Source: Alphaproteobacteria bacterium
GTDB lineage: Bacteria; Pseudomonadota; Alphaproteobacteria; Micropepsales; Micropepsaceae
Direction of reading: 5' to 3'
NCBI GenBank assembly: GCA_020852655.1
Contig: JADZAI010000076.1
Span: 52,663-116,662 of the forward strand
Length of the DNA: 64,000 bases
Shown piece after piece: positions 53,823-63,875 of this stretch. Under the pieces are notes generated by a model. The model was not told the DNA's origin. It saw only the letters and a program-made list of their open reading frames with translations, and made no database searches. A program made the translations under genes and the position numbers. Position 1 is the first letter of the stretch; each line of letters begins with the position of its first letter.

Positions 53823-54575
53823 CTAATCATACGAAAACGTAACGCGCAGGCCGCTGTTGATGAGGCGGTCGCGCGTGCCGTGGAATTCGTAGTCGCGGTC
53901 GGTGTGGGCGAGGCCGATGCGGCAGCCGAGGCCCGGCGCATCCGGCGCGGCGCGGCAGACCTCGCGCGCGAGTTCCACGTCCCAGTCGGTGAGGCGCTGG
54001 CGCTGGCCGTCGCGGTCGGCGAAGCGCTGGGAGATCTGGCCGCTGAGACGCCACGGGCCGGCCGTCGCCTCGGCGCCCGCCAGATAGGCCCACGCGAACT
54101 CATTCAGCCGGTCCACATAGGGGCCGAAGGCGAGGCGCGATTTCATCCGGCCGATCCCCGCGGCGGCGAAGCCGCTGAGCGTGTCGAGCGGGCCGAGGTC
54201 GGTGAACAGCACATACTGACCGCCCCCGGCAAAGACATCGCGATAGTCGACATCGAAAACGCCGGGCTGGCGATCAGACTCATAATTGCCGGCGACCATG
54301 GCGAAGGTGCCGAAATCCGTCAGCGGGACCGACAGCTGCGCCTTTACGGCAAGGCTCTTGTAGACATCGGTCTCGACATAGACCGGCTTCACTTCGAGCG
54401 ACGCCCACCCCGCATCCAGCGCCAGCCGCCCGCTATATTCGGCATCGGCCCCTTCACTGCTGTGGAAGACGCCCATTACCGCGCCATCGGCGGAGAAGGT
54501 CAGGCCCTCCGCCGAGACCGCATCGCCTGCGACAGCCAACCCAAAGCCTGCGACAGCGGTGGAGAGCAGCCTCAC
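53823..54575 (-). CDS. Exported hypothetical protein, probable outer-membrane beta-barrel
   Basis: Signal peptide MRLLSTAVAGFGLAVAGDAVSA; alternating amphipathic strands; C-terminus LRVTFSYD. Confidence 0.6.
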   Translation of the reverse strand: MRLLSTAVAGFGLAVAGDAVSAEGLTFSADGAVMGVFHSSEGADAEYSGRLALDAGWASLEVKPVYVETDVYKSLAVKAQLSVPLTDFGTFAMVAGNYESDRQPGVFDVDYRDVFAGGGQYVLFTDLGPLDTLSGFAAAGIGRMKSRLAFGPYVDRLNEFAWAYLAGAEATAGPWRLSGQISQRFADRDGQRQRLTDWDVELAREVCRAAPDAPGLGCRIGLAHTDRDYEFHGTRDRLINSGLRVTFSYD

Positions 54576-55768
54576 GTGCAGGCCTTCACCGCAGCGGCGA
54601 TTACGTTCGCGGCGTGCGTCAGCGCATCAAGGTCGTGATCGGCTGTCACCGTGGCGCGTAGCCGTGCCTTGCCCATCGGCACCACGGGAAACGGGATGGC
54701 CGTCAGGTAGACGCCGTGCCGCATGCAACGGTCCGCCGCTTCAAATGTCCTGTCCGAATCGCCGACGATGACGGGCGTGATCGGCGTTGCCGTTAGGCCG
54801 ATGTCGAGGCCGTGTCGGCGCAGCGCGGTATGGAAATGATCCGTCTTGGCGTTCAGCGCCAGCAGGATGCCCGGCTCGCGCTCAATAAGGTCGAGGCAGG
54901 CAAGCGCGACAGCCGCCTGAAACGGTACGATGGCGCCTGAGTAGATATAGCTCTTGCCGTTATGGCGTAGATAATCGGTCAGCCCCGCGCTGGCGCAGAC
55001 ATAGCCGCCGGTGCCGGGAATCGCCTTGCTCAGCACGCCCATAACAAGGTCGATGGCGCCCGGCGCCGTATCGAAATGCTGTGTAACCCCATATCCGTTG
55101 GCGCCCAGCACACCGAGCGAATGCGCTTCGTCGATCATCAGCAGCGCGCCGAAGCGGGACTTGAGCTCGATCAGCTTTGGAACATCGGCGATGTCGCCAT
55201 CCATCGAGAACACCGCGTCGCTGACGATGAGAGCATTGCCGTCGCCGCGGTCAGCCAGCTTCGCTTCCAGGTCGGCCATGTCATTGTGGCCATAGGTGAC
55301 GACCCTAGCGCCCGAAGCCTGGATACCATCGAGAATGGAGGCGTGATTTAATTGGTCCGAGAAGATCGTATCGCGCGGCGTGAAAAGCGCCTGGATGGTC
55401 GACACATTGGCTTGATACCCGCTCGGATAGAGGATGCAGTCCTCCGAACGGGTCAAGCTCGCCAGACGCCGCTCGAGTTCCACATGAACCGCCGTCGTGC
55501 CGCAGTTGATTCGCGTGCCGTGCGCGCCCAGGCCGAAACGGTCGAAGGCATCCGCCGCCACCTCGCGAATGGCGCGATCGAGGATGAGGCCGAGATAGGA
55601 ATACCCGGCCATCATCAGCAGGCGCTGGTCGCCGCAGCGCACGAAGCCGCCGGGCAGATATTCATCCACGACCTTGTTGTGGTGATAGATGCCCTTCGTT
55701 CGCGCCTTGCGCGCCAGCCGGCTGATGAAGGACGGCGGCGGAGCGTAGCCGGGGACGAGCGCGTTCAT
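54572..55768 (-). CDS. Alpha-oxoamine synthase family PLP enzyme (BioF/KBL/SPT/CqsA family)
   Basis: GLGAHGTRINCGTTAVHVELERRLASLTRSEDCILYPSGYQANVSTIQALF...LLMIDEAHSLGVLGANGYG...VMGVLSKAIPGTGGYV. Confidence 0.88.
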   Translation of the reverse strand: MNALVPGYAPPPSFISRLARKARTKGIYHHNKVVDEYLPGGFVRCGDQRLLMMAGYSYLGLILDRAIREVAADAFDRFGLGAHGTRINCGTTAVHVELERRLASLTRSEDCILYPSGYQANVSTIQALFTPRDTIFSDQLNHASILDGIQASGARVVTYGHNDMADLEAKLADRGDGNALIVSDAVFSMDGDIADVPKLIELKSRFGALLMIDEAHSLGVLGANGYGVTQHFDTAPGAIDLVMGVLSKAIPGTGGYVCASAGLTDYLRHNGKSYIYSGAIVPFQAAVALACLDLIEREPGILLALNAKTDHFHTALRRHGLDIGLTATPITPVIVGDSDRTFEAADRCMRHGVYLTAIPFPVVPMGKARLRATVTADHDLDALTHAANVIAAAVKACT

Positions 55769-55876: not shown

Positions 55877-55899
55877 TTCAACCAGTTGGCGTGCGCCGC

Positions 55900-56163
55900 A
55901 TGAACGGGCGGGCGCTTCTGGCTTGGAATCTGCGGCGGTTGCGTGCAGAGCGTGGCGTGTCGCAGGAGCATCTGGCCGTCGATGCCGGCATCGACCGGAC
56001 CTATCTCAGCCTGATCGAGCGTGAACTTGGGAACGCCAGCGTCGATGTCATGGATCGGCTGGCCAAATGCCTGAGCGCCGAACTGGGCGACTTCTTCATC
56101 CGTCCCGCACGCGGCACCGCGCGGCCCCAGCCGCTGCCCAAGGGCCGCAAGCCGAAGCGCTGA
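55900..56163 (+). CDS. XRE-family transcriptional regulator
   Basis: LAWNLRRLRAERGVSQEHLAVDAGIDRTYLSLIERELGNASVDVMDRLAKCL. Confidence 0.92.
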   Translation: MNGRALLAWNLRRLRAERGVSQEHLAVDAGIDRTYLSLIERELGNASVDVMDRLAKCLSAELGDFFIRPARGTARPQPLPKGRKPKR

Positions 56164-56389: not shown

Positions 56390-57556
56390 ATGCTGCCTTC
56401 CGATCGCCTCCGTCAGATCGATGCGGCCTCGGCTTCCCTCTACGAAGCGGCCATCGGACTGGTACCGTGGCGGACGGCACTGGACATGTGCGCCACAGCG
56501 TGCGGTGCCGATGCCGCCATCCTGTTCAGCAAGGACCTTGGGCTTGATCCGCGGGTGCCGACCGAAACGTCCGCGATCGATCTCAACGTGGCCGCCGATT
56601 TCCTGAAGTACCACAAACATCTCGATCCTTGGACGCAGGCACTGAGTTCTCAGCGCGGCTATGCCAAGAAGGCAACGGGATTATTCCTTGGGGAACGTCT
56701 CATCACAGATCGGGATCTGCAAAAGACGATCGGATACAATGAATACTACAAGAAGCAGGATCTTCGCCGGCTGATCTCCATAGGGGTGGAGGCGCGTAAC
56801 GTCGACGACGCGCCCGACCTGATCCTGTCCCTGCTGCGCCGCGTGCGTTCGCCGGAATACGAGGGCGACGATGCGCTGGCGACGGCGCATATGCGAAGCC
56901 ACTTCGATGCGGCGATCAATCTGCACCTGCGGGTGCGAGAGCGCAGCCTGGCAAGCGCCGAAGCCTTGTTCGGCGGCGAAGGTTCAGCCATAGCGCTGCT
57001 GGGTCTGGAAAAGCTGATCCTGTATGCCAACGAGAAATTCCGGCTTCTGATCCGGTCGTCGCCGGCAATCCGCATCGAAGGCGGCTTCCTGAAATTTGTC
57101 GGCTCGGCCCAGCCCGTCGAACTGGCCTGCAATCGCATCCTCACTGCCGATGGCATGATCGCCGGCAAGCCCCAGTTCTTCCCCGTCGGCCCGGCGCCGG
57201 GTTCGATCCAGGCCCGGTACATGGTCATCGCACCATTGCCGGCGCGCATTGCAGAGGTCCTGAACCTTGGCCCCAAGCTCGTGATCGCCAAACTGGCCGA
57301 CCTGCCGACATCAAGCGGCAAGGCCGCCGACGCGGCAGCAACCGCATTCGGCCTCTCCGGAGCGGAAAGACGCATCCTGCATCACCTGGTCGCCGGCCGT
57401 GGCGTCGAGGAGATCGCGGCGCGCACCGGCGTCGCCCCCGGCACGGTGCGTATCCAGATGAAGGCGATCTACGCCAAGGCCGGCATCCACCGGCAGGCCG
57501 AACTCGTCAGCCATGTGCTGACGAATTTCGATCCCAGCCTGCGCATCCTTCTGTGA
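56390..57556 (+). CDS. LuxR-type HTH transcriptional regulator with unknown N-terminal sensor
   Basis: C-terminal FGLSGAERRILHHLVAGRGVEEIAARTGVAPGTVRIQMKAIYAKAGIHRQAELV. Confidence 0.88.
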   Translation: MLPSDRLRQIDAASASLYEAAIGLVPWRTALDMCATACGADAAILFSKDLGLDPRVPTETSAIDLNVAADFLKYHKHLDPWTQALSSQRGYAKKATGLFLGERLITDRDLQKTIGYNEYYKKQDLRRLISIGVEARNVDDAPDLILSLLRRVRSPEYEGDDALATAHMRSHFDAAINLHLRVRERSLASAEALFGGEGSAIALLGLEKLILYANEKFRLLIRSSPAIRIEGGFLKFVGSAQPVELACNRILTADGMIAGKPQFFPVGPAPGSIQARYMVIAPLPARIAEVLNLGPKLVIAKLADLPTSSGKAADAAATAFGLSGAERRILHHLVAGRGVEEIAARTGVAPGTVRIQMKAIYAKAGIHRQAELVSHVLTNFDPSLRILL

Positions 57557-60264: not shown

Positions 60265-63222
60265 CTATCCCTTCAGCTTGCGCGCGACATGCCGGAAGAA
60301 GGGCTCGACATCGAGCCCCGATCCGGTCGCGTTGCGCATGATATCCTCCGCCGGCAGACGATCGCCGTGCCGGTGGACCTTCTCGCGCAGCCACCCGAGC
60401 AGCGGCGCAAACGAACCCGCGGCGATCTCGCCGTCCAGCTTGTCGACGCCATAGGCCTCGACGAGCTGCGCCGCATAGAGGCTGCCCACCGTGTAGGTCG
60501 GGAAATAGCCGAACATCGCGCCCGCCCAATGTCCGTCCTGGAGCACGCCCTCATTGTCCGACGCGGGCTCCAGGCCGAACAGGGCGCGGCATTTTTCCCG
60601 CCATGCTCCGGGCAGGTCGGCAACGCTCAGCTCGCCGGCGACCAGCGCTGTCTCCAGTTCGTACCGGAGGATGATGTGCAGGTGATACGACAGCTCGTCG
60701 GCTGACGCGCGGTGCAGTCCGCGTTGTACGCGATTGACCTTCCGGTGCAGCCCGGCCGGCGACAGCGCCCGGCCCGCCTCGCCCAGGGTCGGCACGAACC
60801 AGCCCCAGAACGCCCGGCTCCGGCCGACATGGTTCTCCCACAGCCGCGCCTGCCCCTCATGCAGCGCCGCCCCCGGCGATGCCGCGAGCAGCGTGAAGCG
60901 GTCCTCCGCCGCATAGCCCTGGTCATAGAGCCCGTGCCCGCCCTCGTGCAGGGCCGTCAGCACCAGCCCCGTCAGCTCGCCTGCGCCATGCCGGACGGCG
61001 ATGCGCACATCGTCGAACCCCAGCGCGCTCGTTCCGGGATGCATCGCGCAATCGATCGCCCCGCGTGCAAAGTCGAACCCGATCCGCTCCAGAAGCCTGC
61101 GGCTCATCTCCAGATGCTCACCCTCGCCGATCATGACCGCCGGATCGGACGCATCGTCCTGCGCACGCGCCTCAGCCTCGCGCACCAGCGGCACGAGCCG
61201 CTCCCGCAGCTCTGCGAGAACGGGATCCAGCCGCGCCCGCGTCATGCCCGGCTCGTGCTCGTCCATCAGCACGTCATAGGCGTCCCGATCGTGGTCGCTT
61301 GCCGCCGCCCATGCGCGCGACAGCTTCAGCACCTCGCCGAAGGCCGGCGCGAATACGCCGAAATCATTCGCTTCGCGCGCCTCCTCCCACGCTGCCTGCG
61401 ACGCCGAGCGCGCCTGCGCATAGGCCCGCACCAGGTCCTCTTCCAGCGTCAGCTCGCCCGCGCGCAGGTCGCGCAGCAATTCGATCTGCCGCGCCCATCC
61501 CGCATCGCCGTTGTCGCCGAGCGCCGCCTCCTCGATCAGATCGCCGAAGCTATCGGCCGTGATGCACCCGTGCCGCATCGCCTCCAGGGTCGCCAGTTGC
61601 CTTCCGCGTTCCGCATGCGCCCCCTCCGGCAGCCGCGTCTCCTCGTCCCATTCGAGCGACGCGATCGCGTTGTCGAGATTGAGAAGCTCCGCGATCTCGC
61701 GCTTCAGATCCGCCACCGCGCCGTCCGACCGGCGCTTCGAGCGGCGCGGCGCTGACAATTCCGACGGCGGATCGGCGATCAGCACCGCCGCCATGCCGCC
61801 ATTCTGCGCGACGTTGACGACCTGCTTCTGCGAGACGCGGCACATCACGCCGAGCCCGTGATCGGTCGGCGCAAAGCCCATCACGGCATAGAAGGGCTCC
61901 CGGAAGACACGCCCGTCCGCGCCGACCACCGGAAACTCAGCGACCGGCAGCCGCGTCGCAGCCTGCAACACCCACGAATATTCCGGGTCATCCGCCGCCG
62001 CGACCGCCTCGTTCAGCTTCGCATCCCACTCCGCCTCGCTGACCGACGCACCGATCACGATGCCGTCGCCGCCATAGGAACGGTTCGGCTTCAGCACCAG
62101 CAGGTCGCGATGCCCGCGCGCATAGCTGAGCAGATCACCCTCGGCGTGATGCGGCAGCAGCGTGCGGCGCTCCCCGACGACACGCGTCCACAGCATGTGG
62201 CGGCGGAACATGCGGCACTCGTCGAAGCTGAAATGCCGCTCCGCCAGCTCCGGATTCGTCAGCACTTCCAGGCACGACTTGTGATCGAAGTCGCCCGCCG
62301 CCGACGAGATCACCCGGTTCTCGCGGAACAGCATGCGGATCGCCTCCAGCGGCCGACCCAGTTCCTCCTCCAGTGCGATGAAGTCGCGCGCCTCGTAGTC
62401 GCGATAGATCACGTCGATGCACTGGTCCTCGTAGAAGACCTGTCCGTCCTTCACGTAGAGCTCGCTCGGGTCGGCATGCGCGATCGCCACGCGATGCCGC
62501 TCGGACAACAGCTTCTGCAACACCACCTGTTCGCAGATCCCGTCATCGGCATATTTCGCCTCGACGAAGGCGATGCCGCAGTCGGAGCGCCCCAGCGCGC
62601 GCGAATGGTCGATCAGCGCCTGGATGAAGAGATCGCGCTGGTCGCGCGGCATTTCGACCCCAAGGCCCGGATCGTGCGCCCGCAGCGAGGGCACGAGCTC
62701 CTGCATCACCAGCGCCTCGGCCAGCGGGCTGTAGGAGATGCCGCCCACGCCCGAGAGATTCGCCTCCATGAACTTCAGCGAATCCTGCCAGCCGGCGGCG
62801 GAGAAGTCGCACACCGCATCCAGCCGCCCATAGACGGTGTTCAGCCGGTCATGGGCCGGCGTCCAGATGTCGCGCAGCCAGCGGTCCTCGCCCTCGGTCA
62901 CCTTGAGGATGCGCCGTATATCCGGGTCCGCCAGATACAGCGACGGCATGTTCTTCAGCGCGTCCATCATCTGGTTGCAGACCGCATGCACATAGTCGAG
63001 CTGCTCGCGCATCGCGAGCAGCGGCCGCAGCATGATGGGGATGGGCTGAAGCACCCCGTCATGCTCGTAGACGAACTCTGCCGCTTTCGCCTCGTCGCGC
63101 AGATTCTGCGCGATCCGCGCCAAGCTGCGGTCGCCGATATGTCCGATGGCCTGCTTGACGCGCCCTTCAAGGGCGACGCCTGCGAGGCCGAGGATTTCCG
63201 TAGGGCTGAGGATGGGTTTCAT
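60265..63222 (-). CDS. Fusion protein: ATP-grasp-like N-terminal half plus M32 (Taq-type) metallocarboxypeptidase C-terminal half
   Basis: Single 985-codon ORF. C-half LHEGGHGLYDQG (HExxH), LHEGQARLWENHVGRSRAFW, DGHWAGAMFGYFPTYTVGSLYAAQL; N-half LVLKPNRSYGGDGIVIGASVSEAEWD, FREPFYAVMGFAP. Confidence 0.82.
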   Translation of the reverse strand: MKPILSPTEILGLAGVALEGRVKQAIGHIGDRSLARIAQNLRDEAKAAEFVYEHDGVLQPIPIMLRPLLAMREQLDYVHAVCNQMMDALKNMPSLYLADPDIRRILKVTEGEDRWLRDIWTPAHDRLNTVYGRLDAVCDFSAAGWQDSLKFMEANLSGVGGISYSPLAEALVMQELVPSLRAHDPGLGVEMPRDQRDLFIQALIDHSRALGRSDCGIAFVEAKYADDGICEQVVLQKLLSERHRVAIAHADPSELYVKDGQVFYEDQCIDVIYRDYEARDFIALEEELGRPLEAIRMLFRENRVISSAAGDFDHKSCLEVLTNPELAERHFSFDECRMFRRHMLWTRVVGERRTLLPHHAEGDLLSYARGHRDLLVLKPNRSYGGDGIVIGASVSEAEWDAKLNEAVAAADDPEYSWVLQAATRLPVAEFPVVGADGRVFREPFYAVMGFAPTDHGLGVMCRVSQKQVVNVAQNGGMAAVLIADPPSELSAPRRSKRRSDGAVADLKREIAELLNLDNAIASLEWDEETRLPEGAHAERGRQLATLEAMRHGCITADSFGDLIEEAALGDNGDAGWARQIELLRDLRAGELTLEEDLVRAYAQARSASQAAWEEAREANDFGVFAPAFGEVLKLSRAWAAASDHDRDAYDVLMDEHEPGMTRARLDPVLAELRERLVPLVREAEARAQDDASDPAVMIGEGEHLEMSRRLLERIGFDFARGAIDCAMHPGTSALGFDDVRIAVRHGAGELTGLVLTALHEGGHGLYDQGYAAEDRFTLLAASPGAALHEGQARLWENHVGRSRAFWGWFVPTLGEAGRALSPAGLHRKVNRVQRGLHRASADELSYHLHIILRYELETALVAGELSVADLPGAWREKCRALFGLEPASDNEGVLQDGHWAGAMFGYFPTYTVGSLYAAQLVEAYGVDKLDGEIAAGSFAPLLGWLREKVHRHGDRLPAEDIMRNATGSGLDVEPFFRHVARKLKG

Positions 63223-63302
63223 GGCGCGCGAGGGTTCCAGGCACGCCTGAGTACGTGCACGGCCGGTGGCACGCAACGAAGCTTGGTGTCGCGGTCAGCC
63301 GC

Positions 63303-63875
63303 TCAATGCGCCGCTGACGGCTTCTTCTCACCGGCCAGGATTGCGATGGGGAGGCGGTCCACGGCCACCGGACAATTATAGTGCGGCGAACGCGCGCAAT
63401 TCGGATTGTAGAGATAGTTGAAGTCGAGCGTGATCTCGTTCGGGATGATGCCTGGGGTCAGCGCGACGTCGATATAGCGCCCGACGCCGTAGGTCTCCTT
63501 GCCGGTCGTGTCGTCCATGATGAACGCCGCGAGGCTGTCGATCTCGGGCAGCTTGTCGCTCCCCGCATACATCGGCAGGGTGATCTGCCTGTCCTTCAGC
63601 GTGAAGACCGCATCGCCGATGTGGAAGAATGCCTTGTACCAGCCGCGTGAGGTCTGGAAGACCTTCTTCTCCCACTGCGCCGCCGGCGCGAACTTGGCCG
63701 TCGCGACGAAGGATGGGTCATAGGTGAAATATTCGAGCCCGCCGAACGCCGCGGCATGCGGGTTGTCGTCGTTGAAGACCATCAGCCGGAAGCCCATTTC
63801 GTCCGGCGAAATCTGCGCCATGCCGCCACCGACCCGCAGCGTCGCGCTCACCTCGTGTAGCGTCTCACCCTCTTT
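63303..63875 (-). pseudogene. DUF1684-family protein, 5' truncated by the IS-like element
   Basis: C-terminal DUF1684 features: SLAAFIMDDTTGKETYGVGRYIDVAL...ITLDFNYLYNPNCARSPHYNCPVAVDRLPIAILAGEKKP; usual N-terminal half absent. Confidence 0.6.

Follow-up and report, generated by a model that had tools for sequence, protein, structure and literature searches.

Why are an ATP-grasp-type ligase fold and an M32 carboxypeptidase encoded by one reading frame, and do the two halves serve a common substrate? The gene that raises this question lies in the window, the 64,000-nucleotide stretch of a Micropepsaceae contig (JADZAI010000076.1) that was analysed here. A preliminary description had placed an unbroken frame of 985 codons at 60265-63222. 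This was confirmed, but on the minus strand, where the frame runs uninterrupted from an ATG at 63222 to a stop at 60265-60267; the plus strand of the same interval is interrupted by stops. A longer version starting from a TTG at 63276 is possible, but ATG 63222 is preferred because homologues begin there. No signal peptide is apparent in the protein, which, judged from its sequence, is probably cytoplasmic. The features of the gene are collected in Table 1.

Table 1. Coordinates of the fusion gene and of its domains and motifs (positions in the window, residues of the encoded protein).
Feature	Position	Strand	Basis or remark
Whole fusion gene (P0001)	60265..63222	minus	985 codons plus stop; start backed by homologues
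ATP-grasp ligase domain, eukaryotic glutathione-synthetase type, residues 1-483	61774..63222	minus	AlphaFold, Foldseek, profile match
R133-L-D135, R-x-D, first part of Mg/acyl-phosphate motif	62818..62826	minus	Invariant 28/28
E153-A-N155, E-x-N, second part of Mg/acyl-phosphate motif	62758..62766	minus	Invariant 28/28
D270-V-I-Y-R274-D275	62398..62415	minus	Aligned to DVIYRR, which is conserved in canonical CP ATP-grasp proteins
K378-PNRSYGGD-G387, probable ATP-binding Lys and Gly-rich loop	62062..62091	minus	Aligns with KAVGESGGYG of CP_ATPgrasp_2
Flexible linker, residues 484-503	61714..61773	minus	pLDDT below 50 at 490-497; fastest-evolving part
M32 metallocarboxypeptidase domain, residues 506-982	60277..61707	minus	PF02074 E=3e-138; Foldseek
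H759-EGG-H763, HEXXH zinc site, catalytic Glu760	60934..60948	minus	H, E, H invariant 28/28
E789, probable third zinc ligand, HE[S/G]Q motif	60856..60858	minus	Invariant 28/28
R838-ASA-D842, RXXAD motif of M32	60697..60711	minus	Motif list PMC7918520
G892-VLQDGH-W899, GXXQDXHW motif of M32	60526..60549	minus	Motif list PMC7918520

The last ~490 residues had been read as a full M32 carboxypeptidase with an HEGGH site, and the profile match, the fold and the invariant zinc site all bear this out. Foldseek matched the full-length model to M32 structures (BsuCP, ChtCP and others) with TM(target) values of 0.86-0.93, reaching 0.93 for 3hq2, and domain length, fold and zinc site are as in BsuCP, ChtCP, TthCP and PfuCP. 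The motifs of the family are HPF, DXRXT, HESQ, I/VRXXAD and GXXQDXHW (PMC7918520). The claim that other M32 signatures are present holds in part: GXXQDXHW and RXXAD are kept, whereas HPG stands in place of HPF, DVRIA in place of DXRXT and HEGQ in place of HESQ. Among the 28 intact fusions (the window's included) on which all invariance counts are based, the last position of HPF is F in 17 and G in 11. The C-terminal half is best described as a putative carboxypeptidase. Known M32 carboxypeptidases are single-domain proteins, commonly homodimers (PMC7918520), and in the open-licence papers searched no pairing of M32 with ATP-grasp was found among the M32 architectures described.

The N-terminal half had been proposed to adopt a circularly permuted ATP-grasp fold of the glutathionylspermidine-synthase type. 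Its Pfam matches to circularly permuted ATP-grasp families are all sub-threshold (14.3 bits against CP_ATPgrasp_2, PF14403, with a curated cut-off of 32), no NCBIfam family is matched, and querying the PDB by sequence alone with a profile of this half produced no usable match. CP_ATPgrasp_2 is weakly matched by 15/15 aligned N-half members, with a best value of 1e-6 that falls short of a family assignment. When aligned by hhalign with canonical CP_ATPgrasp_2 proteins from the bacterium's own family and class, the N-half profile was colinear over residues 150-436 (87.5%). With 29 related sequences as input, AlphaFold modelled this half confidently (pLDDT 90.3, pTM 0.90). The model's top Foldseek matches in the PDB, and the best across the whole half, are eukaryotic-type glutathione and homoglutathione synthetases (2hgs, 1m0w and 3kal; E 1e-16 to 1e-15, TM 0.62-0.68), followed by Cp1B, YjfC/YgiC and GspSA (2io8, E=2e-9), all of which are circularly permuted ATP-grasp ligases. 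The fold assignment is therefore sustained by model and structure search; of the glutathionylspermidine-synthase label the fold class stands, but eukaryotic-type glutathione synthetases are the closer folds (E~1e-16 versus ~2e-9).

In Cp1B, a fungal E-64 ligase, R139, D141, E163 and N165 lie around the adenosine and are proposed to assist in forming the acyl-phosphate, and their substitution by Ala abolishes or strongly reduces activity (PMC12568646). R133, D135, E153 and N155 of the fusion share the R-x-D...E-x-N pattern with Cp1B; the residues are matched by this pattern and by their order along the chain rather than by superposed structures. K378, G384, G385 and G387 are likewise invariant in the 28 fused sequences. 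The N-terminal half is a ligase fold with the expected catalytic residues intact, and we consider it a putative ATP-dependent ligase. The failure to reach any cut-off of the known ATP-grasp families could indicate that this half is no longer an enzyme and only binds ATP or peptides, regulating or positioning the peptidase. We judge this improbable: the expected catalytic residues are all invariant in 28 sequences, and the N-terminal half is the more conserved of the two. With glutathione and homoglutathione synthetases as nearest folds, the N-terminal half might instead make glutathione or a close analogue, from which the M32 half would remove the C-terminal residue. However, it is just ~15% identical to true glutathione synthetases, and the window's genome already encodes a canonical bacterial GshB (PF02955, E=9e-72), as do G003, G008, G458, G459 and G465. 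A product of this type is therefore very unlikely; glutathione itself is unlikely because of the host's GshB, and a role as the missing glutathione synthetase of these bacteria was discarded on the same ground.

Between window and nearest relative (L037), both halves are under purifying selection, with rough dN/dS values of ~0.31 and ~0.35, whereas the linker, at a rough ~0.66, evolves fastest. The pTM of the full-length model is just 0.54 and the relative placement of the two halves is not predicted; therefore, channelling between them cannot be argued.

An assembly chimera was ruled out by the intact two-half frame in other genomes of the family and in public records. One intact ORF of ~1000 aa with both halves was found in 27 public records in addition to the window gene. 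Within the window's own family, the N-terminal half was matched in 16/37 genomes, compared with 0/24 class relatives outside the family, and both halves occur in a single frame of 972-1031 aa in 13 further genomes. In one of these, G011, the first ~52 codons lie in a different frame, and in G036 the ligase is cut off at a contig end. M32 is present in 15 of the 16 N-half-positive genomes, solely as the fused copy and with no other M32; one of them, G034, has it split over contigs, the frame entering the M32 half before the contig ends. Two other family genomes carry a standalone M32 without the ligase. The fusion is rare, since a full match was obtained only in the window's own genome in an even sample of 399 Pseudomonadota genomes. 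Named records come from Alphaproteobacteria, Gammaproteobacteria, a Deltaproteobacteria bin placed in Myxococcota, and Planctomycetota; these are metagenome bins, and some taxon names may be wrong. At least four bacterial lineages thus retain the fusion, which, recurring beyond a single genome, is more than a curiosity. Long frames in L170 and L174 were considered as further fusions and rejected, because their extra parts look like antisense or low-complexity open frames in GC-rich DNA.

In a tree of 57 N-terminal halves, the fused ones lie on one side of one branch (support 92/90). The fused M32 domains form a 100/100 group in their own tree, placed with the M32 genes found near unfused ligases and with a single standalone M32, away from other standalone M32s of related bacteria. 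As each half groups on one side of one branch, the trees, whose roots are not fixed, are consistent with one fusion that was later passed between phyla. A phage or viral origin was rejected, as no relative was found in phages or in viral contigs.

Further evidence that ligase and peptidase belong together comes from close unfused ligases of ~500 aa in Chloroflexota and Planctomycetota. At 6/19 of these loci an M32 gene lies nearby: a few genes from the ligase in the related Chloroflexota loci L149, L151, L153, L154 and L155, and as a divergent neighbour in the Planctomycetota locus L164. Five of the six represent one Chloroflexota clade, so that two independent lineages are involved. In 5/6 of the genomes there is no full-length M32 besides the neighbouring gene. 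Given one or two M32 genes per ~5 Mb genome, we estimate that a neighbour within ~6 kb would occur in well under 1% of genomes, and adjacency in two independent lineages is therefore unlikely to be chance. As unfused ligase genes occur near M32 genes, a shared pathway for the two proteins is likely. Several genomes with an unfused ligase contain no M32; thus, the unfused ligase can work without it. These genomes, and the many gene contexts in which the fusion occurs, would suit a chance joining of two housekeeping activities that have no common substrate, but the neighbouring genes in two separate lineages and the retention of the fusion across four lineages, where it was never separated, make this the least probable reading that we considered.

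M32 is not the only peptidase found with these ligases. Genes of the TldD/TldE family, peptidases known from peptide natural-product maturation, lie beside the unfused ligase in two further loci (L148; L057/L163), one of which also has an M42 peptidase gene. In two Planctomycetota genomes (L179:4054-8868 and L180:5612-8782, minus strand), a distant ligase homologue follows an HExxH-motif domain in one open frame. In L180 this domain shows a weak similarity to DUF2268 zinc proteases (E=0.0025, short of the cut-off). These frames may, tentatively, represent a second ligase-metallopeptidase fusion. Two Chloroflexota loci have a prolyl-oligopeptidase family (S9) gene (L156:7081-9312 and L157:7257-9269, minus strand) immediately upstream of their unfused ligase; such peptidases are common enough for this to be chance.

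Ligase and peptidase hence appear to be functionally linked: there are two folds with intact catalytic residues on both sides, a fusion that has been conserved, and M32 genes that recur near unfused ligases. Catalytic activity, as well as the substrate and the direction of the putative reactions, is inferred. The best fold matches of the N-terminal half are all peptide- or amide-forming ligases. With ATP and Mg, this half would phosphorylate the carboxylate of a small peptide or acid and then join the activated carboxylate to an amino acid or amine, and the M32 half would cut residues off a peptide C-terminus. In our proposal, the two share a chain because the C-terminal linkages that they act on are of one kind: one half would most likely add an amino acid or amine to the C-terminus of a small peptide, and the other would take it off the same peptide. 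A two-enzyme protein whose halves form such a making and breaking pair is the reading we favour, with a confidence that is about evenly balanced. A point against it is that the pair could run a futile cycle on one chain unless regulated, and no regulatory domain was found in the fusion protein.

The combination appears to be new, although its parts are of known kinds. GspSA of E. coli resembles it in that a single chain combines a hydrolase with a circularly permuted ATP-grasp ligase. The hydrolase of GspSA is an N-terminal cysteine amidase. In contrast, that of the fusion is an unrelated zinc carboxypeptidase at the C-terminus, so that the domain order is reversed, and Pfam detected only M32, and no CHAP-type cysteine amidase, outside the ligase half. 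The analogy to GspSA drawn in the preliminary description thus holds for the ligase-hydrolase principle but not for the hydrolase or the domain order. RimK and RimB offer another parallel, as the ATP-grasp ligase RimK adds C-terminal glutamates to RpsF and the protease RimB removes them (PMC12239564); however, RimK is of another ATP-grasp class, RimB is an aspartic protease, and the two are encoded by separate genes. Cp1B and E. coli YgiC/YjfC share the fold class of the N-terminal half but, unlike the fusion, are standalone enzymes; the substrates of these known systems are epoxysuccinate plus amino acid (Cp1B) and peptide plus spermidine (YgiC/YjfC). Eukaryotic-type glutathione and homoglutathione synthetases differ from the fusion in carrying no peptidase.

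In the main rival of the making and breaking pair, the M32 half trims the C-terminus of a peptide, e.g., a protein-derived fragment or a peptide precursor, and the ligase then attaches an amine or amino acid to the carboxylate so exposed, both being steps of one biosynthetic or recycling pathway. The fold similarity to YgiC/YjfC and Cp1B, which cap carboxylates, the TldD/TldE genes beside the ligase in two loci and a distant ligase relative (24% identity) that is encoded on a plasmid alongside other ATP-grasp and adenylating enzymes point in this direction, whereas neither a precursor-peptide gene nor a conserved cluster was seen beside the fusion. We regard this order of events as rather unlikely, at a probability of roughly one in four. 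The plasmid is pNBBC01-5 of Pantoea agglomerans (L212, 38 kb), and its gene set, which looks like a small-peptide natural-product cluster, comprises a diaminobutyrate transaminase (ectB), a ThiF adenylyltransferase, a TauD-like dioxygenase, GNAT enzymes, another ATP-grasp gene and a purD-annotated gene.

Returning to the making and breaking pair, it is tempting to speculate, if only tentatively, that the fusion is a writer-eraser gene moved between phyla, which installs and removes a C-terminal amino-acid or amine conjugate, its target being a small peptide or a protein tail. It would then be a member of a larger group of glutathione-synthetase-like ligases that repeatedly pair with peptidases, namely M32 (fusion and adjacency), TldD/TldE (adjacency) and a DUF2268-like zinc protease (possible fusion). 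In most bacteria, to our knowledge, M32 carboxypeptidases lack a clear physiological substrate. The ligase product is a candidate for what the M32 peptidase acts on, and the conserved fusion gives a concrete handle on it; the fusion may also hint at a small-peptide metabolite or a C-terminal modification not yet described, in bacteria most of which are uncultured.

In the neighbourhoods of the fusion loci, annotated with a home-made gene caller, no gene is conserved beside the fusion, and a conserved operon as a clue to the substrate was sought without result. In the window, a DUF1684 gene (63306-63851, minus strand), co-oriented with the fusion, precedes it by ~80 bases and, as far as gene calls show, is not kept beside it elsewhere. 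Further away, a class I/II aminotransferase-like gene (54572-55768, minus strand), which by eye reads like an alpha-oxoamine synthase, is found next to an XRE-type HTH gene (55891-56163, plus strand), with a LuxR-family regulator (56390-57556, plus strand) in the same neighbourhood.
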